From NCBI GenBank assembly GCA_021299095.1, contig JAJTFW010000010.1:1-38102 (forward strand): 38,102 bases of DNA, in the 5' to 3' direction. The notes beneath the pieces were generated by a model that ran no database searches, was not told the DNA's origin, and saw only the letters and a list, made by a program, of their open reading frames with translations. Positions 19,906 to 36,840 of this stretch are shown here, piece by piece; position 1 is the first letter of the stretch, and every line of letters begins with the position of its first letter. This DNA is from Sphingobacteriales bacterium (GTDB taxonomy: Bacteria > Bacteroidota > Bacteroidia > AKYH767-A > OLB10). The translations under genes were made by a program, and so were the position numbers.

Positions 19906-20256
19906 TTAGCGGATGACCTTTTTTTCACGACCGAAATCGCGGGCAAACTGCCGTATCCGGTCTGCCATTGAAGCATCAGCTGTCGAGCGCTCATAGGTTT
20001 CGGCCATCCCAGCCAGGGTTTCGTAGAAAAAAAAGTCCATTTCCTCGACTGTCATCTCGTGGGTCCACAAATCGATCCGCATGGTGCTTTTCTCAGCTGG
20101 ATCCCATGCAGAAAACATCAGTGAACGGGCTTTCTTCTCCCCTTCCAGTCCGGCATCCTCGGCGTGCCACGCTAGACCGACGGGCTGCTTCTCGGCGTTT
20201 AATTCGACTGCAATCCGGATTTCAGAACGGCGGGCGGGGGTCAGGTCTTTGGACAT
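19906..20256 (-). CDS. gldC: Gliding motility protein GldC
   Basis: A 116-residue cytoplasmic-type protein of the GldC family, known from Flavobacterium johnsoniae gliding. Family segments include SEIRIAVELNAEKQP, LAWHAEDAG, AWDPAEKSTMRIDLWTHEMTVEEM, FFFYETLAGMAETYERST and the closing FARDFGREKK. In F. johnsoniae GldC assists gliding without being an essential T9SS core part, and homologues occur in non-gliding Bacteroidota, so motility cannot be concluded. The frame is open further upstream to 20442 but that part is cysteine-rich, unlike the family, and overlaps the divergent gene; the ATG at 20256 matches GldC and has a TAnnTTTG element 25 bases in front. Confidence 0.93.
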   Translation of the reverse strand: MSKDLTPARRSEIRIAVELNAEKQPVGLAWHAEDAGLEGEKKARSLMFSAWDPAEKSTMRIDLWTHEMTVEEMDFFFYETLAGMAETYERSTADASMADRIRQFARDFGREKKVIR

Positions 20257-20281
20257 GCAGATACAATAAAACGGGTGGCTA

Positions 20282-20337: not shown

Positions 20338-23300
20338 ATGCGTAATTCCATCCGATTCAGGCGTATCATTCCGCTTTTCGTATTCATCTGTATGCTTTGC
20401 CCAACAAAGCCAGCAGAGGCGCAATTCACGCGTGGCGTGCAAATGAATTTCGGAAAAAACAGGGTGCAGTACAATGATTTCCTGTGGACATTTTACCGCT
20501 TTAAGTCCTTCGACACCTACTACTACCTAGGGGGGCAGGAGCTTGCGGTATATACTGGACGAACCGCTGAAACCGAAATTGCGGAATTGGAAAAACTGTT
20601 CGATTACCGCATAAACGGACGGTTCCAGTTCATCATTTACAACCGACTTTCGGATTTGAAGCAGAGTAATATCGGGTTGGAAGGCGAAGAACAAAACACC
20701 AACACGGGAGGACTTACGCGCATCATCGGCACCAAAGTGCTATTGTATTTCGATGGCGACTACAGGCACTTTCGGGAACAAATCCGATCGGGACTTACAC
20801 AGGTAATGATCCAGCAACTGATGTACGGTGGAAGTATCAAAGACCGCGTACAAAGTTCTGTGCTACTTCATTTGCCCGATTGGTATTTGAATGGATTGAT
20901 TTTATTTGCCTCCCGCGGTTGGAATGTCGATCTGGACTGCGCAGTTCGTGATGCTATTTTATCAGGCCGATACAAAAACCTGAACAGCCTTTCAGGTGAA
21001 GATGCTTCAATTGCAGGTGCATCTTTGTGGAATTACATCGTAGAGACGTATGGTGCTGGCGCTGTTTCCAACTTGCTTTACATGACGCGTGTCAACCGGA
21101 ACATTGACCAAGGGTTTCTATACGTATTGGGTGTTCCGCTTAAGGACCTCGGGAAGAACTGGAGCCAATACTACACAGAGCTTGCTGCTGCCGATACAGT
21201 CGGACGTGTAATACCAACCAACACCATCCAACTCAGGACACGAAGATCGGGATCCATTGTGAGCCAATTGAGCATGAGCCCTGACGGGCGCCTAGCAGCC
21301 TACGTCACCAATGAATCCGGAAAATACCGCATATGGTTGTATAATACATCCACCAACAAGCGAAAACGCATTTCGAAAGGCGGATACAGAAGTGTAAGGC
21401 AAGACGTGGATTTAAGTTTTCCCAGTCTCGCCTGGCATCCATCGGGGAAATACCTTGCTTCTATCCGTGAACGCAAGGGTAAACTTTGGCTCGATTATCA
21501 CATGGCCGACAACAAGTTCAAGCGGGAATCATCCAAGTTCTTTTATTTTGACAAGGTCCTTGACTTTTCATTCTCATCGGCAGGAACCGAATTCGTATTA
21601 TCGGCAGTACAAAAAGGACAATCCGATCTATTCACATTCAGTCCGCGAACCAAGACCTATACCCGACTAACCGATGACCGTTGGGATGATTTACATCCGC
21701 GCTATGTGCTGGATGACCGATACATTGCATTCAGCTCGACACGAACTGCTGACAGCCTGAAACCAACACCGCTGAGGCAATCAGCAGATTTGGAACGCCC
21801 AGCTTCAACAGATCTTTTCCTGCTTGATGTCGTGAACAAATCACCAAAGCTTATTCCGCTGTCCCAGACGGCGGGAATCAATGAGACCTATCCGTTGGAA
21901 ATCGATGATGCACACTTCGGATTTTTGAGTGATAAAAACGGCATTGTTAACCGCTACGAAGCCCGACTCGACAGCACGATTGCATACATCGACACGACAA
22001 TCCACTACAGATATATCGTGGAGAGCAAACCGATGACTGACTTTTCGTTCAACCTCCTTGAACAGGATGTGACCCGTTTGTCGCCAAGAATCGGATTGCT
22101 GAGCAAGGCTGACAAAAAGTACATCCTGCAGATCATAAATGCGGCCGAATCCGGAACCGAACCTTCTAATCCTTTAAGACCCACTACCCTATCACGCAAA
22201 CTCCGTTCAGAAACCGGATTCGCACCATCGGTAAAAGGCAGCAAAGTGATAACAACCTCCAGTCAGGACGGAGTTGAAAAGGATAGCAGCTTTGCGAAAT
22301 CAGATAGCACTTTGGAATCGCCCAGGCCTCGTATCCTGTTTCAATCCGAGTTCACAGAAAAGCCAGGAGCCCGCAATCAAACCACGAACGAGCCTAGTGT
22401 ACCGGAATCGAACATCATTAGGATAAATTCTTCGTATGGAAACGATACGCTTTCTGTTATTGAACGTAAAACCAACACTACCACCGACTCCGTTGCTTAC
22501 CAATTGCCAAAACAACGCAATTACGAAATAGCATTCGGTCCCAGTTATGTTTTAACGCAGCTTGACAACAATCTCCTCAATGAAACGTATCAGACCTTTA
22601 CGGGAGGAGCCGTTTACTTCACCCCTGGACTGAATGCACTCTTTAAAATCGGGATTAGTGACCTCTTAGATGACTATCGCTTTGTCGGAGGACTTCGTCT
22701 CAGTGGAAACCTGAACTCAAACGAATACTACGTCGGATTCGACAATCTACGTCATCGTCTTGACAAGCAAATTTCGTTCTACAGACAGGCTCGTGAAGAA
22801 TTTACTCCCTTCTCATTCCTGAAAGTCCATACCCATGAGGCGAAATATTCCGTTCGCTGGCCTTTCAGTGACATTACATCACTCAGGGGAATGGTTGCCT
22901 ATCGCCACGACAGAGTCGTAGCCTTGAGTACTGATGCATTCAATCTGGTTGTACCTAATCAATACACCAACCGGATATCCATGCGTACCGAATATGTGTA
23001 TGACAATACGTTGTCAACAGGTCTAAACCTTTACAACGGCACCCGCTTCAAATTATTCGCTGAAGGATTCCGTAGACTCGACGGAGGGTTTCTTGGCGTT
23101 TTGGGTGCAGATATCCGGCACTACACGAAAATCTACAAGCAGTTGATCTGGGCGAACCGCTTTGCCGGTAGCACCTCTTTCGGGGATGAAAAACTAATTT
23201 ATTATTTGGGAAGCACCGATAACGCATTTACGCCAACGGACAATTTCAATACCGAGATTCAGATTGATCGGACTCAACAATACTCCTTTCAAGCACTTGC

Positions 23301-23700
23301 AACCAATCTGAGGGGATTTGTACAGAACATCCGGAACGGTAACAGCTTTGCACTGATAAACAGTGAAATCAGAATACCCGTCTTCCAAGTACTAGTTAAC
23401 AAGCCGATCCGATCCGACTTTGTCCGCAATTTTCAAATCGTCGGTTTTGGTGATATTGGAACTGCATGGACTGGGCCATCGCCATACAGCCGCACGAATG
23501 CACTTTTTCGCAAAGAGTACCCTGGAAATCCGATCAGCATCACTGTGACCAAGGACATCGAGCCGATTGTTGGCGGTTACGGTTTCGGCTTTCGTAGTCG
23601 GGTGCTAGGGTACTTCTTGCGTGCAGATTGGGCTTGGGGAGTTGATGATGGTGCAATCCAGGAACGGATATTCTACTTCTCACTTGGCCTAGATTTTTAA
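20338..23700 (+). CDS. Large outer-membrane protein: peptidase-MA-like, TolB-like propeller and C-terminal barrel-like regions
   Basis: A 1120-residue protein with a signal peptide (cut predicted near AEA-Q, residue 28). Residues about 40-290 look like a degenerate peptidase-MA domain: LPDWYLNGLILFASRGW resembles the P-x-W-x-x-E-G segment after the zinc site, but the HExxH itself is absent (the matching helix reads QVMIQQLMYGG). About 300-560 is a TolB/PD40-type beta-propeller (MSPDGRLAAYVTNES, LAWHPSGKYLASIRE, DDRYIAFSSTRT). A Ser/Thr-rich linker (about 590-725) leads to about 390 residues of alternating strands ending GGYGFGFRSRV and FYFSLGLDF, a BamA/Omp85-like finish with terminal Phe. 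I do not recognise a named gene. The start at 20338 was chosen over 20275 because it begins the signal peptide directly. Confidence 0.75.
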   Translation: MRNSIRFRRIIPLFVFICMLCPTKPAEAQFTRGVQMNFGKNRVQYNDFLWTFYRFKSFDTYYYLGGQELAVYTGRTAETEIAELEKLFDYRINGRFQFIIYNRLSDLKQSNIGLEGEEQNTNTGGLTRIIGTKVLLYFDGDYRHFREQIRSGLTQVMIQQLMYGGSIKDRVQSSVLLHLPDWYLNGLILFASRGWNVDLDCAVRDAILSGRYKNLNSLSGEDASIAGASLWNYIVETYGAGAVSNLLYMTRVNRNIDQGFLYVLGVPLKDLGKNWSQYYTELAAADTVGRVIPTNTIQLRTRRSGSIVSQLSMSPDGRLAAYVTNESGKYRIWLYNTSTNKRKRISKGGYRSVRQDVDLSFPSLAWHPSGKYLASIRERKGKLWLDYHMADNKFKRESSKFFYFDKVLDFSFSSAGTEFVLSAVQKGQSDLFTFSPRTKTYTRLTDDRWDDLHPRYVLDDRYIAFSSTRTADSLKPTPLRQSADLERPASTDLFLLDVVNKSPKLIPLSQTAGINETYPLEIDDAHFGFLSDKNGIVNRYEARLDSTIAYIDTTIHYRYIVESKPMTDFSFNLLEQDVTRLSPRIGLLSKADKKYILQIINAAESGTEPSNPLRPTTLSRKLRSETGFAPSVKGSKVITTSSQDGVEKDSSFAKSDSTLESPRPRILFQSEFTEKPGARNQTTNEPSVPESNIIRINSSYGNDTLSVIERKTNTTTDSVAYQLPKQRNYEIAFGPSYVLTQLDNNLLNETYQTFTGGAVYFTPGLNALFKIGISDLLDDYRFVGGLRLSGNLNSNEYYVGFDNLRHRLDKQISFYRQAREEFTPFSFLKVHTHEAKYSVRWPFSDITSLRGMVAYRHDRVVALSTDAFNLVVPNQYTNRISMRTEYVYDNTLSTGLNLYNGTRFKLFAEGFRRLDGGFLGVLGADIRHYTKIYKQLIWANRFAGSTSFGDEKLIYYLGSTDNAFTPTDNFNTEIQIDRTQQYSFQALATNLRGFVQNIRNGNSFALINSEIRIPVFQVLVNKPIRSDFVRNFQIVGFGDIGTAWTGPSPYSRTNALFRKEYPGNPISITVTKDIEPIVGGYGFGFRSRVLGYFLRADWAWGVDDGAIQERIFYFSLGLDF

Positions 23701-23756: not shown

Positions 23757-24947
23757 ATGATTCGCCCGGAGCACATTCAAGAACTTGCCGCAACCATTCA
23801 ATTGGATGTTGTAGCACACCGACGGCACCTGCACATGCATCCGGAGCTCTCATTTCATGAGCATAAAACAGCTGCTTATGTTTCGGAGTTTCTGAAAAAA
23901 GCAGGCATTTCATGCTCGGGAGGAATCGCAGGTACGGGTGTGGTAGGAATCATAGAAGGAACGAATCCCGGAAAAAAAGTCGTTGCGCTACGAGCGGACA
24001 TGGATGCCTTACCGATTCATGAACTCGGCTCAGCACCATACAAGAGCCAGAATCCGGGCGTGATGCATGCTTGTGGTCACGATGCGCATACAGCCTCACT
24101 ACTTGGTGCTGCAACAATTCTTAATCGGCTACGCGATCAATTTGAAGGAACTGTAAAGCTCATCTTTCAGCCGGCAGAGGAAAAACTTCCCGGAGGTGCA
24201 TCAATGATGATACAGGAGGGCGTATTGAAAAACCCTACACCCGATTGTATTTTTGGCCAACACGTAATGCCCCATATTCCGGCAGGAAAAGTTGGTTTCC
24301 GATCAGGTACATACATGGCGAGTACCGATGAACTCTACCTAAAGGTTATCGGCAAAGGTGGTCACGGAGCGATGCCACACATGAATATCGATCCGGTCCT
24401 GATCTCGTCTCACCTAATCATAGCCCTTCAGCAAGTAGTTAGCCGAAATGCAAATCCAACCGTCCCCAGTGTACTCTCATTCGGAAAAGTGATTGCTGAT
24501 GGTGCAACGAACGTGATTCCTGATTACGTTCTCATCGAAGGCACCTTCCGTACCCTCAGCGAGTCCTGGAGATCATCTGCACATGATCGCATGACGACAT
24601 TGGCCCATCAACTGGTGGAATCCATGGGTGGCCGCCTGGAGTTTGAAATCAGAAAAGGCTATCCGGTTCTGGTAAACGATTCGGAACTCACTGGGAAAGC
24701 CCGAACCCGTGCCGTTGAATACCTTGGACCAGAAAATGTAACTGATCTCGACATTTGGATGGCTGCCGAAGATTTCGCCTATTACACCCACGAGACCAAG
24801 GCTTGCTTTTACAGACTTGGAACACGGAACGAATCCAAAGGAATCACCTCATCCGTACACACCCCTACATTCGATATTGAAGAAGATGCTCTTCAAATCG
24901 GGTGTGGATTGATGGCCTGGCTGACGATATGCGAGTTGACGGAATAA
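23757..24947 (+). CDS. M20 family metallo-amidohydrolase (M20D type)
   Basis: A 396-residue cytosolic zinc/manganese hydrolase of the M20D group, which includes N-acyl-L-amino-acid, hippurate and IAA-amino-acid hydrolases. Metal-site motifs are MHACGHDAHTA (about 102-112), FQPAEEKLPGGA (catalytic Glu-Glu), the His of FGQHVMPHIPAG and the C-terminal VHTPTFDIEEDAL. GKGGHGAMPH marks the dimerisation/lid domain. It lacks a signal peptide. The sequence does not determine the substrate. It lies 56 bases downstream of the outer-membrane gene on the same strand, so read-through is possible, but no functional link is evident. Confidence 0.93.
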   Translation: MIRPEHIQELAATIQLDVVAHRRHLHMHPELSFHEHKTAAYVSEFLKKAGISCSGGIAGTGVVGIIEGTNPGKKVVALRADMDALPIHELGSAPYKSQNPGVMHACGHDAHTASLLGAATILNRLRDQFEGTVKLIFQPAEEKLPGGASMMIQEGVLKNPTPDCIFGQHVMPHIPAGKVGFRSGTYMASTDELYLKVIGKGGHGAMPHMNIDPVLISSHLIIALQQVVSRNANPTVPSVLSFGKVIADGATNVIPDYVLIEGTFRTLSESWRSSAHDRMTTLAHQLVESMGGRLEFEIRKGYPVLVNDSELTGKARTRAVEYLGPENVTDLDIWMAAEDFAYYTHETKACFYRLGTRNESKGITSSVHTPTFDIEEDALQIGCGLMAWLTICELTE

Positions 24948-29227: not shown

Positions 29228-30682
29228 TTGAGCCCCCAAGCCCTCCCATCGATTCAATTTCACCAATTTCGTGGCGTGGGCATTCGTTTACTCCTGCTAC
29301 TGTTCATCCTCACCCTATCGGATTTGTCCGCCCAGACCGTATCCGATAGTCTGAACTTACAGGCCTCACACATCCGGCAAATCATAATAACGGGAAACAA
29401 GCGCACCAAGGAGGCGATTGTGCGTCGTGAACTCACATTTACCGAAGGTGATACACTGCCAAGCTACGTTTTGGAAGAAGCCAGCGCACGAAGTCGCCAG
29501 AACCTCATCAATACCGGACTATTCAATTTTGCAGAGATCACATTCTTTCGCGGGCAGGGACTCGAAACCGTGGTTCATATTGACCTGACGGAGCGGTGGT
29601 ATCTGTGGCCGTCCCCGATTTTTGAAATATCGGATCGGAATTTCAATGAATGGTTGGTCAGAAAAGACTTTTCAAGGACCAATTACGGATTGGTTGTGCG
29701 CCAGGAAAACCTGAGTGGGAACGACGATATCCTACAGGCTCAAGGTATTTTCGGCTATACGAACCGATTCGGACTTGCCTATTCCCGCCCATTCATCAAC
29801 AAGCGCATGGACCTGGGGCTGACTGTCGGTTTTGCTTACTCCAAACAGGCTGAAACATCCTACAATACCACGGGGAACAAACTGGATTTTATAAGGCTCG
29901 ATGATACACCTGCCAGGACCGAACGCACAGCCTTCGTGCGGTTGGTGCGAAGAAAAGGGCTCTATCAGTATTTCACTACCACCGCCGACTATCGTCGTAC
30001 TGATGTAAACGATACGGTCATTCGCCTTAATCCCACCTATCTCTGGAGGGATGAAACGCGACAGCAATATTTCGGACTTACATGGTCCTATCGTTTCGAC
30101 AACCGCGATTATCAACCTTACGCCCTTGCAGGACGGGTCTTTGAAATTGAAGTGAATAAAACTGGAATCGGGTTGTTTAAAAATGAACCGAACTTGTTGA
30201 TGATTAGCGCTGGGCTCCGCGTGTATGGCCAATTTGCGAAGCGATGGTATGCCGCAGCAGCTATTAAAGGGCGCCTGACCCAACAGGAGTCCTCGCCATT
30301 CACAAACAGGAAGGCCCTGGGCTATGGTGGTGATTACATTAGGGGGTATGACCTATATGTCATCAACGGACAGAACTTCGTATTACTTAGAAGCGCAGTG
30401 CGATACAACCTGCTCCGTAGACGAGTTTATCAGTTACCATACCTGAACAGTAATAAATTCAAAAAGATCCCCATCACGATTCACATTACAGGGTTTTTTG
30501 ATGCAGGAAAAGTTGAAGACCCCCTGGCAGGCGCCCGAAATCCGCTGAGCAACAGCTGGCAATACGGGACCGGCATCAGCCTTGATTTGATTTCATACTA
30601 TGATGTTGTGATGCGTGTTGAAGCTGCAGTAAACCGTCAGGGTGAGCGCGGGCTGTTTTTACGCTTTGGTGCGCCGTTCTGA
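29228..30682 (+). CDS. Short Omp85/BamA-TamA-family outer-membrane protein with one POTRA
   Basis: 484 codons from a TTG start. A hydrophobic signal (IRLLLLLFILTLSDLSAQ) is followed by one POTRA-like module (about 50-120: IIITGNKRTKEAIVRRELTFTEGD, SRQNLINTGLFNFAEITFF) and then alternating strands to the end, finishing FLRFGAPF with the terminal Phe expected of a beta-signal. The conserved GGDYIRGYDLYVINGQNF segment resembles the VRGY loop of Omp85 barrels. It differs from the full BamA at 34336 in having far fewer POTRA domains. No ATG exists before the signal peptide: an in-frame stop lies at 29207, leaving TTG at 29228 (1 base after the CBS stop) or GTG at 29276. Its function is unknown; assembly or transport of envelope proteins is plausible. 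Confidence 0.82.
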   Translation: MSPQALPSIQFHQFRGVGIRLLLLLFILTLSDLSAQTVSDSLNLQASHIRQIIITGNKRTKEAIVRRELTFTEGDTLPSYVLEEASARSRQNLINTGLFNFAEITFFRGQGLETVVHIDLTERWYLWPSPIFEISDRNFNEWLVRKDFSRTNYGLVVRQENLSGNDDILQAQGIFGYTNRFGLAYSRPFINKRMDLGLTVGFAYSKQAETSYNTTGNKLDFIRLDDTPARTERTAFVRLVRRKGLYQYFTTTADYRRTDVNDTVIRLNPTYLWRDETRQQYFGLTWSYRFDNRDYQPYALAGRVFEIEVNKTGIGLFKNEPNLLMISAGLRVYGQFAKRWYAAAAIKGRLTQQESSPFTNRKALGYGGDYIRGYDLYVINGQNFVLLRSAVRYNLLRRRVYQLPYLNSNKFKKIPITIHITGFFDAGKVEDPLAGARNPLSNSWQYGTGISLDLISYYDVVMRVEAAVNRQGERGLFLRFGAPF

Positions 30683-31671: not shown

Positions 31672-32598
31672 ATGAAATGTAGACTATTATTCGTGCTTTC
31701 CCTGGTGCTGCTCAGCGGATTTACCGCTGATGCTCAGCGCATGAGAGCCCGCTGGAAAGCCTATCGCTACGAATGGAGTGCCGGTATCGGAGCCAGCAAT
31801 TTCTTGGGGGATCTCGGAGGAGCCAATGCCATTGGCACGAATGGCTTCAAGGATTTGGAACTCAGCCTTACACGCCCGGCCTTGACGGTCGGCTTCCGAT
31901 ACAAAATCGCCCAGAATTTTTCCCTTCACTCCCACTTGACTTACGGCCACGTTCGCGGTGATGACAAGCTTACTGAAGAGTTTTTCCGGAACAACAGAAA
32001 CCTCAATTTCAAGTCTGATATCTTCGAATTCAATCTGAATTTCGAAGCTGCGTTACTGAATCAGCGCCAAGGGGGTATTTACCGCCTTCGTGGAGTAAAG
32101 CGCTTGACCACCTATGAAACCTCCATTTATGCATTTGCTGGTATCGGCGTCTTCCGATTCAACCCAAAAGGAGAACTCAATGGCGAGTGGTATCGACTTC
32201 AACCTCTTGGAACGGAAGGACAAGGTTTGTCACCTGCCCGTGAACGCTACGACCTGGTCCAGATTTGCGTGCCCATGGGTATCGGCGCCCGATACTTCTT
32301 CAACCGACGAATGGGTGTAGGATTCGAGTTCGGCATTCGCAAGACATTTACGGATTACATCGATGATGTAAGTAAAACTTATTATGACAATGAGGCCATC
32401 AAGCAGAAGTATGGACAGGTAGCCGCCCTTCTTGCTGACCCTAGCGCATCCTCACTTAATGGTACCGATGCTGATGATGTTATCACTGCGCCTGGACAAC
32501 AGCGTGGGGACCCACGTGATAATGATGCTTATATGTTTGCCGTCATCAGCATTCATTACAAGTTGCGCACCGGCCGCTCCAATTTCCCGGTATTCTAA
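31672..32598 (+). CDS. PorG-like (DUF6089-type) outer-membrane beta-barrel protein, copy 1
   Basis: A 308-residue protein with a signal peptide (about 1-21, ending ADAQ) and a predicted eight-stranded-type barrel of alternating segments (YEWSAGIGASNFLGDLGG, LTVGFRYKIAQNFSL, YAFAGIGVFRFNPKGEL). The signatures LQPLGTEGQG and TFTDYIDDVSKTYYD are those of the PorG/DUF6089 family. PorG anchors the periplasmic PorK/PorN ring of the type IX secretion system to the outer membrane in Porphyromonas, where porG also lies just upstream of uppS. The next gene is a second copy of the same family. Which copy, if either, is the T9SS component cannot be told from here. The insert between the last two strands (ASSLNGTDADDVITAPGQQ) is longer than in copy 2. 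Confidence 0.82.
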   Translation: MKCRLLFVLSLVLLSGFTADAQRMRARWKAYRYEWSAGIGASNFLGDLGGANAIGTNGFKDLELSLTRPALTVGFRYKIAQNFSLHSHLTYGHVRGDDKLTEEFFRNNRNLNFKSDIFEFNLNFEAALLNQRQGGIYRLRGVKRLTTYETSIYAFAGIGVFRFNPKGELNGEWYRLQPLGTEGQGLSPARERYDLVQICVPMGIGARYFFNRRMGVGFEFGIRKTFTDYIDDVSKTYYDNEAIKQKYGQVAALLADPSASSLNGTDADDVITAPGQQRGDPRDNDAYMFAVISIHYKLRTGRSNFPVF

Positions 32599-32663: not shown

Positions 32664-33506
32664 GTGAGACTTGCCACCCTAGCATTTCTGTTTTCACTGC
32701 TCATCGTGACAAATACCCGTTCTCAATCCAGAGAAATGGGGTTGATGCTTGGAGCCATGGGGTACCGTGGTGATCTGGACCCCACGATGTATGACACCCG
32801 CTTTATTGATCCAGCATTGGGTATCCTCTACCGCAGGTCGTACAGCAACCACTGGGCTTTTAAAACAGGGATCAACTACGGCAAAATCCATGCAGATGAC
32901 GCGGAAGCCGATAACCAATGGGAGAGGAACCGGAATCTGCATTTTCGCTCCTCTATTCTGGAACTGACAAGTCAGGTTGAATTCAACTTTTTCCCGTACC
33001 AGACCGCAAGCCCGTTCTCTAAGTTCAGCCCTTACCTCTTTTTTGGTGTTTCTGCTTTTCATTTTAACCCCAAAGCGGAAATCAACGGATCGTGGGTAAA
33101 ACTTCAGCCTTTGGGAACTGAGGGCCAGGGCACTGAATTGTATCCGGACCGTAAGCGTTATGGCCGAATCACCGGATCGTTCGTGTACGGAGGAGGATTC
33201 AAATTCAAGGTGATGCGGCGTTTTGGTGTAATGATTGAAACTGGCGTAAGACCCACATTCACCGATTACCTCGACGATGTAAGTTCAACCTATGCGGACC
33301 CGCTGGCCATCCGACGTGAATACGGCAAAACGGCGTCAGCGCTAAGCGATCGCTCCTTGGACAAGGATCCAGGAGGAAATATAGGTCGGCAGCGTGGCGA
33401 CCGCAGGCTGCGTGACTGGTATGTGTTTACAGGAGTACAAATCACGTACACCCTCTCAAAAAAATACATCGACAGCTGCCAGCCCTTCCGGATCAAGCTG
33501 TGGTAA
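32664..33506 (+). CDS. PorG-like (DUF6089-type) outer-membrane beta-barrel protein, copy 2
   Basis: A 280-residue paralogue of the preceding gene, from a GTG start with AGGAG 9 bases upstream. It has a signal peptide (about 1-20, ending TRSQS). It shares NRNLHFRSSILELTSQVEFN, PYLFFGVSAFHFNPKAEING, LQPLGTEGQG, PTFTDYLDDVSSTYADPLAI and a late QRGDRRLRDWYVF with copy 1, but is clearly diverged, so the duplication is not recent. The C terminus continues about 15 residues past the last strand (KKYIDSCQPFRIKLW), with a cysteine and a basic tail, unlike copy 1. Position directly before uppS matches porG in Porphyromonas, so this copy may be the positional orthologue. Confidence 0.82.
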   Translation: MRLATLAFLFSLLIVTNTRSQSREMGLMLGAMGYRGDLDPTMYDTRFIDPALGILYRRSYSNHWAFKTGINYGKIHADDAEADNQWERNRNLHFRSSILELTSQVEFNFFPYQTASPFSKFSPYLFFGVSAFHFNPKAEINGSWVKLQPLGTEGQGTELYPDRKRYGRITGSFVYGGGFKFKVMRRFGVMIETGVRPTFTDYLDDVSSTYADPLAIRREYGKTASALSDRSLDKDPGGNIGRQRGDRRLRDWYVFTGVQITYTLSKKYIDSCQPFRIKLW

Positions 33507-33584: not shown

Positions 33585-34343
33585 ATGTCCTCCCCTCTAA
33601 AAGAACAAATCAATCCGCACCATTTGCCCAGGCATGTGGCCATCATTATGGATGGAAACGGGCGTTGGGCGAAGAAGCAGGGGAAAATCAGAACCTTCGG
33701 ACATCAGGGTGGAGTGACTGCGGTGAAGGATACGGTAGAGGCTGCTGCCGAGCTCGGCATCGAGGTGCTAACCATGTATGCATTCAGCACCGAGAACTGG
33801 AGTAGGCCGAAACTTGAAATCGATGCCCTCATGCACTTGCTTGTTGAAACGATCAGCAAGGAAACACCGACGCTGATGAAAAATCAGATTCGTCTGGACG
33901 CAATCGGAGATATTGATGCATTACCCACCAAGGTGGCCCGTAACCTGAGAAAAACGATTGATGCAACCGCAACCAACACGAGAATGACCCTCGTGCTTGC
34001 GCTTAGCTATAGTTCACGTTGGGAGATCACCAAAGCGGTAAAGGCAATTGCATCCGAAGTTAAAGCGGGAATACTGGAACCTGAAGCAATAACTGAGGAT
34101 GTTGTAAGCAAACACCTTGCTACTGCCGAATGGCCCGATCCCGAACTGCTCATCCGCACCAGTGGTGAATCCAGAATCAGCAATTACCTGCTATGGCAAA
34201 TTGCCTACGCGGAACTTTATTTTACGCCGAAACTATGGCCTGATTTCCGGAAAGAGGATTTGTATGAGGCTCTGCTGGATTTCCAGCAACGCGAGCGACG
34301 CTTCGGAAAAACAACAGAGCAAGTAAAGTCTGAGCATGCGTAA
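33585..34343 (+). CDS. uppS: Isoprenyl transferase (undecaprenyl diphosphate synthase)
   Basis: A 252-residue cis-prenyltransferase that extends farnesyl diphosphate to C55, the lipid carrier for peptidoglycan and surface glycans. The catalytic Asp sits in IIMDGNGRWAKKQGK (about 18-32), followed by GHQGGVTAVKD, TMYAFSTENWSRP, LALSYSSRWEI and DPELLIRTSGESRISNYLLWQIAYAELYF, the full set of family motifs. Length is normal. Its last 8 bases overlap the start of bamA. The product feeds MraY of the dcw operon at the other end of the window. Confidence 0.97.
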   Translation: MSSPLKEQINPHHLPRHVAIIMDGNGRWAKKQGKIRTFGHQGGVTAVKDTVEAAAELGIEVLTMYAFSTENWSRPKLEIDALMHLLVETISKETPTLMKNQIRLDAIGDIDALPTKVARNLRKTIDATATNTRMTLVLALSYSSRWEITKAVKAIASEVKAGILEPEAITEDVVSKHLATAEWPDPELLIRTSGESRISNYLLWQIAYAELYFTPKLWPDFRKEDLYEALLDFQQRERRFGKTTEQVKSEHA

Positions 34344-36840
34344 AAAGCTGGTCCTTTTGTTCGTCCTAATTGGGATGTGCGCCGGCTTGGTTAGCGCTCA
34401 GCAAGTCGGTAGCGCCGAAGGTGTTCGCATTGATTTCAGTAACCCGAAAGAATACGAACTCGGAGGTATTACAGTTTCCGGAGTTCAGTTTCTGGACGAA
34501 AGCGTACTAATCACCCTAACAGGTCTGAACGTAGGCGATCGCTACCGTATTCCAGGGGAGCGCATTTCAATGGCCGTTGAAAACCTGTGGAAGCAAGGTT
34601 TGTTGTCCGACATTAAAGTAATCGCCACCAAAGTCATCAGCGATCGTATTTTTCTCAACTTCCAGCTAAGCGAGCGGCCTCGCTTGTCTCGTTTCGCATT
34701 TCAGGGTATATCGAAAAGTGAAGCGGACAAGTTGAGGGAGAAACTGCAACTCGTAAAAGGAAAAGTCATCACCGAAAACCTGGTATATCTGACCCGGAAT
34801 CAGGTCCGTGATTACTATATCGACAAAGGATTCCTGTTCATCGATGTCAGCATCCAAACTGAAAGGGACTCCACTGCCGGTGCAAACCAGGAGCTGATGC
34901 GGATTACCGTGGGCAACAGAAAACGTGTCAAGATTAACGATGTGATTTTGCACGGCAATTCGGTACTGAGCGAAAAGAAATTGCTCAGCAAAATGAAGGG
35001 GAGCAAGGAGTCTGCCTGGTATAAAATCTTCAGCAACTCGAAGTACGGGGATGAGGCACTCGAGAAAGACAAGGAAAAAATCATTGCAACCTATGCGGGC
35101 AAGGGAATGCGCGATGCCAGCATCTTAAAAGACAGCGTATATCGGCACGATGACCGCACTGTCAATATCGAATTATGGATTCAGGAAGGGCCGAAGTATT
35201 ACTTCAGGAATATAGACTGGGTCGGAAACACCAAGTATACTTCTACACAACTGGGGCAGATCCTGAGTATCAAACGAGGGGATATTTACAACCAGCAGAA
35301 ACTTGAAGAAGGCCTCTTCATCTCCCAAAGCGGCAGGGATATCAGCTCCTTGTACATGGACGATGGTTACTTGTTTTTTCAAGTGACTCCTGTTGAAGTC
35401 CTTGTTGACCAAGACTCTATTGACCTGGAAATGCGCATCTATGAAGGCAAGCAGGCCACAGTGAACAGGGTTACAGTAAAAGGCAACACCAAAACGAATG
35501 ACAAGGTGGTGCTAAGAGAAATCCGCACCAAACCGGGGCAGTTGTTCAATCGCTCTGACATCATCCGCACCCAGCGTGAACTTGCCCAGCTCGGTTATTT
35601 CGATCAGGAAAAACTCAATGTAAACCCCAAGCCCAATCCGGCCGACGGAACTGTCGATATCGAATACACCGTAGAGGAGCGTCCGTCAGATCAGCTTGAA
35701 CTATCGGGCGGTTGGGGTGGTGGCGCCGGTGTTGTGGGAACTCTTGGTGTTTCCTTCAATAATTTTTCTGCACGCAACATTTTCCGCAGGGACACCTGGT
35801 CTCCTTTACCCACAGGTGATGGGCAGCGTCTGTCTATCCGCTTCCAATCGAATGGACGATTTTTCCAGAGTTACAATGCCAGTTTCACCGAACCGTGGTT
35901 AGGAGGGCGCAAGCCGAATTCGCTCAGTGTTTCGGCCTTTCGGTCTATCCAAACAGACGGACTTCCGAAGGACGATGCGAACCGCTCCGTCCTTGCCATC
36001 AGTGGTATGTCGGTGGGTTTAGGAAGACGCCTTACCTGGCCTGACGATTTCTTCCAGATCTATCACGAGGCGGCATTTCAGCGCTACTCACTTGATCAGT
36101 GGACCGGCACCTTTTTGTTTACGGACGGGAACTCGAACAACTTGAACTTCGAACAGACCATTTCCCGCAATTCCGTTGATGGGTTAATCTGGATCCGGAG
36201 TGGTTCGCAGTTGTCGTTCACCCTTCAACTTACACCTCCCTTCAGCCTGTTTAACAAGACCACCGACTATGCCTCGGCCCCATCCGAGATAAAATACAAA
36301 TGGATTGAATACCACAAGTGGAAATTCAGTGGTAGCTGGTACCGTTCTCTCGGTAATAAGTTTGTGTTGTTTTCACGCGCACAAATGGCCATTTTGGGCT
36401 TCTACAATCCGGATATCGGTCCATCCCCCTTTGAGCGGTTTTACCTGGGCGGTGACGGATTATCGGGATTCGCCCTAGACGGACGTGAAATCATCGCCTT
36501 ACGGGGTTATGAAAACAACACGATTACACCCAGAATCAAGGGGAATCCCGTTGGAGGAACCGCCTACAACAAATTCACCATGGAGCTGCGCTTTCCGGTC
36601 TCCCTTAACCCCTCAGCAACCATTTACACCCTGGCCTTCCTTGAAGGAGGTAACAACTGGCTTGGAACACGATACTTCAACCCCTTTGTTCTCAAGCGTT
36701 CTGCCGGAGTCGGTGTACGGATATTCCTGCCCATGTTCGGTCTGCTCGGCCTTGACTGGGGTTATGGATTTGACGAGGTTGAGAACCTACCGGGTGTGAA
36801 CGGTGCCAATTTCCACTTCACCATCGGCCAGCAGTTTTAA
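34336..36840 (+). CDS. bamA: Outer-membrane protein assembly factor BamA
   Basis: An 834-residue Omp85 protein that folds and inserts outer-membrane proteins. A signal peptide (about 1-21, ending VSAQQ) is followed by five POTRA modules to about residue 450 (for example ITVSGVQFLDESVLITLTGL, RVTVKGNTKTNDKVVLREIR, GQLFNRSDIIRTQRELAQLG), then a 16-strand-type barrel. The strand-6 loop reads ALRGYENN, the VRGY-like motif that contacts the barrel interior, and the chain ends FHFTIGQQF with the terminal Phe. Length is typical of Bacteroidota BamA. The start overlaps the uppS stop by 8 bases. Two OmpH/Skp-type chaperones follow, as in other members of the phylum. Confidence 0.96.
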   Translation: MRKKLVLLFVLIGMCAGLVSAQQVGSAEGVRIDFSNPKEYELGGITVSGVQFLDESVLITLTGLNVGDRYRIPGERISMAVENLWKQGLLSDIKVIATKVISDRIFLNFQLSERPRLSRFAFQGISKSEADKLREKLQLVKGKVITENLVYLTRNQVRDYYIDKGFLFIDVSIQTERDSTAGANQELMRITVGNRKRVKINDVILHGNSVLSEKKLLSKMKGSKESAWYKIFSNSKYGDEALEKDKEKIIATYAGKGMRDASILKDSVYRHDDRTVNIELWIQEGPKYYFRNIDWVGNTKYTSTQLGQILSIKRGDIYNQQKLEEGLFISQSGRDISSLYMDDGYLFFQVTPVEVLVDQDSIDLEMRIYEGKQATVNRVTVKGNTKTNDKVVLREIRTKPGQLFNRSDIIRTQRELAQLGYFDQEKLNVNPKPNPADGTVDIEYTVEERPSDQLELSGGWGGGAGVVGTLGVSFNNFSARNIFRRDTWSPLPTGDGQRLSIRFQSNGRFFQSYNASFTEPWLGGRKPNSLSVSAFRSIQTDGLPKDDANRSVLAISGMSVGLGRRLTWPDDFFQIYHEAAFQRYSLDQWTGTFLFTDGNSNNLNFEQTISRNSVDGLIWIRSGSQLSFTLQLTPPFSLFNKTTDYASAPSEIKYKWIEYHKWKFSGSWYRSLGNKFVLFSRAQMAILGFYNPDIGPSPFERFYLGGDGLSGFALDGREIIALRGYENNTITPRIKGNPVGGTAYNKFTMELRFPVSLNPSATIYTLAFLEGGNNWLGTRYFNPFVLKRSAGVGVRIFLPMFGLLGLDWGYGFDEVENLPGVNGANFHFTIGQQF

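Follow-up and report, generated by a model that had tools for sequence, protein, structure and literature searches.

Proteins of the Omp85 superfamily build or cross the outer membrane. Their barrels insert or translocate proteins at this membrane, and the domains N-terminal to the barrel are usually periplasmic. Recent work on outer-membrane biogenesis in Bacteroidota has reportedly been done in Flavobacterium johnsoniae, and TolB, WD40, and propellers go unmentioned in the recent Bacteroidota outer-membrane literature that we examined. A WD40-Omp85 subfamily, in which the closest structural match of the propeller is TolB and for which a role in assembly was hypothesized, was named in 2014 (Heinz and Lithgow, PMC4104836). 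The original prediction for the locus described here, which held that propellers and Omp85 barrels normally belong to different machines, overlooked this subfamily. BepA, an M48 metallopeptidase acting on BAM, directs LptD to on- and off-pathways (PMC8423444). In the literature searched, we found no study of the protein described here, no experiment on any member of its family, and no report combining peptidase MA, PD40, and the outer membrane.

The protein is encoded in a 38,102-nucleotide stretch of DNA from a Sphingobacteriales bacterium, all of which was analyzed and which we call the window. Its gene (20338..23700, + strand, ATG start) specifies 1,120 amino acids and a stop codon and occurs once in the 2.5-Mb genome to which it belongs. 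At least 75 relatives were recovered by scanning species genomes, and the complete genes among them nearly all encode about 1,070–1,140 residues and are collinear with that of the window. The frame is open and single copy, and dozens of relatives conserve it over its full length, which excludes a chance reading. One typical Bacteroidia copy (L033) came from a record titled Saccharospirillaceae (Pseudomonadota), which is probably a metagenome assembly with the wrong title or wrong binning.

The putative signal peptide covers residues 1–28 (20338..20421, + strand), with cleavage before Q29, as judged from sequence and precedent without a dedicated predictor. The AQ(F/Y) junction is conserved among relatives, and the position of Q29 agrees with the Bacteroidetes Q-rule (PMC5837995). 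Near the N-terminus of the mature protein, the motif FGKNRVQY (residues 38–45; 20449..20472, + strand) is among the most conserved stretches family-wide; G39, N41, Q44, and the nearby W50 are invariant or nearly so, both in members with an intact zinc site and in those with a dead one. A full-length AlphaFold2 model built from a 48-sequence alignment (mean pLDDT 77.7, pTM 0.76) comprised a mixed N-terminal domain, a propeller, a linker, and a barrel. Every part of the three-part outer-membrane protein originally proposed, including its signal peptide, held in the sequence, the AlphaFold models, and the structure matches.

Residues 726–1120 (22513..23697, + strand) are predicted to form an Omp85-type 16-strand β barrel, with sixteen long strands spanning residues 733–1116 and Phe as the terminal residue. 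The best alignment was of residues 734–1120 with Deinococcus BamA (Z 24.6, rmsd 3.9, 315 residues). F. johnsoniae BamA, P. gingivalis BamA, TamA, and Sam50 likewise matched the barrel structurally, with BamA, TamA, and Sam50 matches at Z 20–24.6. Two motifs of the superfamily are present: LRGF (residues 991–994; 23308..23319, + strand) is the (V/L)RG(F/Y) motif of loop 6, with R992 and G993 invariant, and FGDIG (residues 1037–1041; 23446..23460, + strand) is the FxDxG barrel motif, with D1039 and G1041 invariant. In Pfam, PF01103 (Omp85) was unreported for the window protein and was matched by seven of 20 aligned relatives scanned (best E 1.1e-12). The Pfam scan found no POTRA domain in the window protein, where residues 297–601 are modeled as propeller and 602–725 as disordered. 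The Omp85-like finish read by eye is thus borne out, and the models indicate an Omp85-superfamily outer-membrane protein in which a gluzincin-fold domain and a propeller replace the usual POTRA domains.

The propeller, residues 297–601 (21226..22140, + strand; PD40 E 6e-6), was modeled as TolB-type. Where at least three PD40/TolB-type blades had been recognized at first, the strand pattern of the model gives six, and residues ~293–582 superpose on TolB (Z ~23, rmsd 2.6, ~239 residues). True TolB identity was ruled out by a score of 46.1 bits against the TIGR02800 equivalog cut-off of 343.15, and no protein above the TolB model cut-off was found in the protein's own genome, which is 96% complete. 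The low-complexity linker also survived closer analysis. It occupies residues 602–725 (22141..22512, + strand), has a pLDDT of ~30–40 across most of its length, varies from 75 to 148 residues in relatives, and is probably disordered.

The N-terminal domain, residues 29–296 (20422..21225, + strand), is predicted to adopt the gluzincin (peptidase-MA) fold. Modeled alone from 102 sequences, it reached a pLDDT of 88.1 and a pTM of 0.84. Its best PDB matches were the peptidase domains of collagenases (Foldseek E 2.8e-5; Z 15.9, rmsd 4.2, 233 residues), and M1 and M30 peptidases matched at Z 13–14. The window protein itself scored below the Pfam cut-off for Peptidase_MA_2 (PF13485; E 0.12, 12.6 bits, cut-off 32.4), which was matched by all 19 sister-class relatives scanned (best E 1e-16).

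This domain has lost its zinc site, as first suggested by the missing HExxH. In a joint alignment of 131 proteins, the HExxH columns of the window protein hold the degenerate motif SGLTQ (residues 151–155; 20788..20802, + strand), and the column of the third zinc ligand holds N185 (20890..20892, + strand). All 44 sister-class members carry HE(L)xH together with both Glu residues of EGxAE, which include the third ligand, whereas none of the 87 aligned Bacteroidia proteins has the HExxH residues. The counts of 87 dead and 44 intact sequences ruled out a single faulty sequence or alignment as the explanation. A zinc site is also absent elsewhere in the domain, as residues 1–300 contain no HE pair and only two His residues, H144 and H178. 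At a mean pairwise identity of 39%, the dead domain is nearly as conserved as the barrel (42%) and far more so than the linker (19%). It thus appears to be retained for some purpose, and its conservation argues for a binding or scaffolding part.

Dead and intact proteins were separated by a single branch (SH-aLRT 100) in trees built without the zinc-site columns; these trees are quick and unrooted, the structures are predictions, and the relatives were sampled within Bacteroidota, many of them from MAGs. Because the trees are unrooted, the direction from intact to dead is our inference, drawn from a parent fold that is enzymatic. The zinc site is likewise dead in six divergent Bacteroidia copies (L180-183, L185, L186). 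Some Bacteroidia (families f2, f109, and f6) encode a full-length gluzincin-propeller-barrel protein with intact HExxH, which we call subfamily B (L177, L178, L179, L184, L210-L213). Subfamily C (L202-L206) consists of shorter intact relatives (open frames of 958–1005 amino acids), present as second copies in several sister-class genomes. On the tree, the dead type, the sister-class type A, B, and C each lie on one side of a branch, and B and C group together. The HExxH copies of f2, f6, and f109 were discounted as a sign of repeated loss, since they belong to the separate subfamily B and f6 genomes encode the dead type as well as B. In our samples, the dead type was confined to Bacteroidia and type A to the sister classes, and the two never co-occurred, which is compatible with orthology; differential loss of old paralogues could also have produced this pattern.

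We consider that the window protein is probably an uncharacterized outer-membrane assembly factor and not a component of gliding or the type IX secretion system (T9SS), and the envelope assembly factor of the original prediction is supported as the most conservative function. More specifically, it may join an Omp85 insertase or translocase to a periplasmic module that handles clients, with the protease switched off in the Bacteroidia lineage, a reading by analogy to which we assign a probability of about 50%. As with other members of the superfamily, the barrel would insert or translocate proteins at the outer membrane. By Omp85 precedent, the propeller and N-terminal domain would lie on the periplasmic side, in the POTRA position, where they could capture arriving clients or bind partner proteins. 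In the sister classes, the intact HExxH...E site would let a single chain serve both assembly and quality control, promoting assembly or degrading failures by a logic like that of BepA acting on the BAM of E. coli. In Bacteroidia, the catalytic residues may have been lost once, leaving the binding or assembly role alone. A bolder version, which we offer tentatively and would not expect to hold in full, is that the family represents a third Bacteroidota Omp85 machine beside BAM and TamL/TAM. Such a machine would combine protease, client-binding propeller, and insertase or translocase in one chain and would comprise several paralogous subfamilies; the protease would have been switched off once in Bacteroidia, and its scaffold would have found further use purely in assembly.

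Canonical BamA is encoded by a separate gene in the same window (34336-36840, within a BamA/Skp cluster at 33.5–38.1 kb), so the three-part protein would be an accessory and not the core insertase. The window also encodes a BamA-like protein with a single POTRA (PF07244) and a barrel (29228-30682, + strand), its gene flanked by a CBS-domain gene and nadK; three Omp85-type proteins lie within 17 kb, and this is the middle one. Two tandem genes for outer-membrane proteins (31672-32598 and 32664-33506, + strand) lie directly upstream of uppS-bamA-skp-skp. The first product, at 102 bits, fell short of the 130-bit cut-off for the T9SS protein PorG, and by eye the second looks similar to the first.

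The architecture could also suit a self-translocating surface protein, whose barrel would export its own gluzincin and propeller part while the linker threads the pore. The precedent is PlpD, a patatin-Omp85 protein whose barrel exports its lipase domain (PMC4104836). The window protein lacks POTRA domains, and both the dead and intact groups have a disordered linker of ~100 residues, two features that would favor this reading. However, the TolB-like propeller is best known as a periplasmic fold, display would be pointless for a dead enzyme, and nothing in our data indicates surface exposure of the N-terminal part. PlpD-type proteins, moreover, retain their POTRA domains. We therefore regard self-translocation as unlikely, at perhaps the odds of an outside contender.

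The closeness of the propeller to TolB, together with the missing TolB-level protein in the same genome, brings to mind a stand-in for Tol-Pal, in which a barrel-anchored propeller would link the outer membrane to Pal and peptidoglycan or to a TolA/TonB-like force transducer. We find this quite improbable given the wide shortfall from the TolB cut-off, the absence of the protein from many families, and the retention in the barrel of the Omp85 catalytic-loop motifs, which would be superfluous in a mere anchor.

The gene neighborhood and the distribution of the family bear on the link to gliding and T9SS that the original prediction drew from gldC. This gene (19906..20259, − strand; GldC model 106.2 bits, cut-off 102.15) is indeed the divergent neighbor of ours in the window, but a neighborhood survey found the adjacency only there and in the four closest relatives (L002-L005). 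The linkage is not conserved among the relatives surveyed, gldC is not a conserved part of the system, and the idea of an operon with gldC was ruled out. Directly downstream of our gene lies an M20 peptidase gene (23757..24947, + strand, by Pfam), the commonest downstream neighbor in relatives. Among 75 relatives, an M20 peptidase is downstream in ~48 and an MBL-fold hydrolase upstream in 58, counts that are limited by contig ends. These recurring neighbors and a TauE/SafE-like membrane protein gave no lead to function.

The family spans Bacteroidota and is widespread in the class Bacteroidia. Some profile match was found in 273 of 296 genomes phylum-wide and in 281 of 295 genomes of the class, figures that exceed the true number of carriers because the weakest matches are propeller-only and fall in other proteins. 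SprA_N, a T9SS marker, was scored in 160 genomes. Across two samples, about 40 SprA-positive genomes, Flavobacterium among them, were without the protein; it is not present wherever SprA is, which ruled out a T9SS link as a requirement. Genome G021 was assigned to the genus Flavobacterium by the closeness of its SprA to that of F. johnsoniae (4521 bits over 2403 residues, full length). In the other direction, every dead-type genome tested was SprA-positive, and the dead type occurred in none of 10 SprA-negative genomes, a small set that includes very small genomes (0.5 and 1.2 Mb) and one genome (G002) with a type-B copy, an intact relative. The association is one-sided and phylogenetically confounded and gives no ground for a role in T9SS. 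Family f18 departs from the other sister-class families examined in that two of its small complete genomes (G010 and G020) have neither SprA nor a full-length copy. A T9SS- or gliding-linked assembly factor, which the gldC neighbor and the one-sided SprA pattern would favor, is the least probable of the readings considered here, given the SprA-positive genomes without the protein, the confinement of the gldC adjacency to closest relatives, the makeup of the SprA-negative set, and the intact relative in G002.

Absence from whole families, including Flavobacterium, shows that the protein is not indispensable for outer-membrane assembly in general. Since the family is missing from sampled Flavobacterium genomes and present in most other sampled Bacteroidota, a widespread Omp85-type protein appears to have gone uncharacterized. 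The sharp division into intact and dead types offers a natural experiment, in which comparing a sister-class member with a Bacteroidia member could reveal what the protease contributes to the handling of outer-membrane proteins.

With BamA, TamA, TamL, and Sam50 the window protein shares the 16-strand barrel, the (V/L)RG(F/Y) and FxDxG motifs, and the C-terminal Phe, but barrel identity is only ~13–17%, and propeller and pseudo-protease stand in place of POTRA domains. With TolB it shares the six-bladed PD40 propeller, here scoring far below the equivalog cut-off and set within a membrane protein behind a gluzincin fold. The fold of this preceding domain is shared with Peptidase_MA_2 and the M1, M9 collagenase, and M30 peptidases, and sister-class relatives retain HExxH and the third-ligand Glu, whereas the window protein and its class have lost all HExxH zinc ligands. 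The likeness to BepA (PMC8423444) lies in the proposed logic, by which immature outer-membrane proteins are handled by a periplasmic protease fold of the HExxH kind; BepA is an active enzyme of the M48 family on a separate chain, and the comparison is by analogy only. The nearest described architecture is WD40-Omp85 (PMC4104836), which likewise joins an N-terminal TolB-like β-propeller to an Omp85 barrel without POTRA domains. The difference is the gluzincin-fold domain found here ahead of the propeller, a domain that is dead in the Bacteroidia members; no peptidase domain is mentioned for the subfamily in the 2014 text. By the description given there, the window architecture is a variant of WD40-Omp85 with an added (pseudo)protease. 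The propeller-Omp85 combination has thus been known since 2014, and the class-wide pseudoenzyme transition is a notable addition to it.
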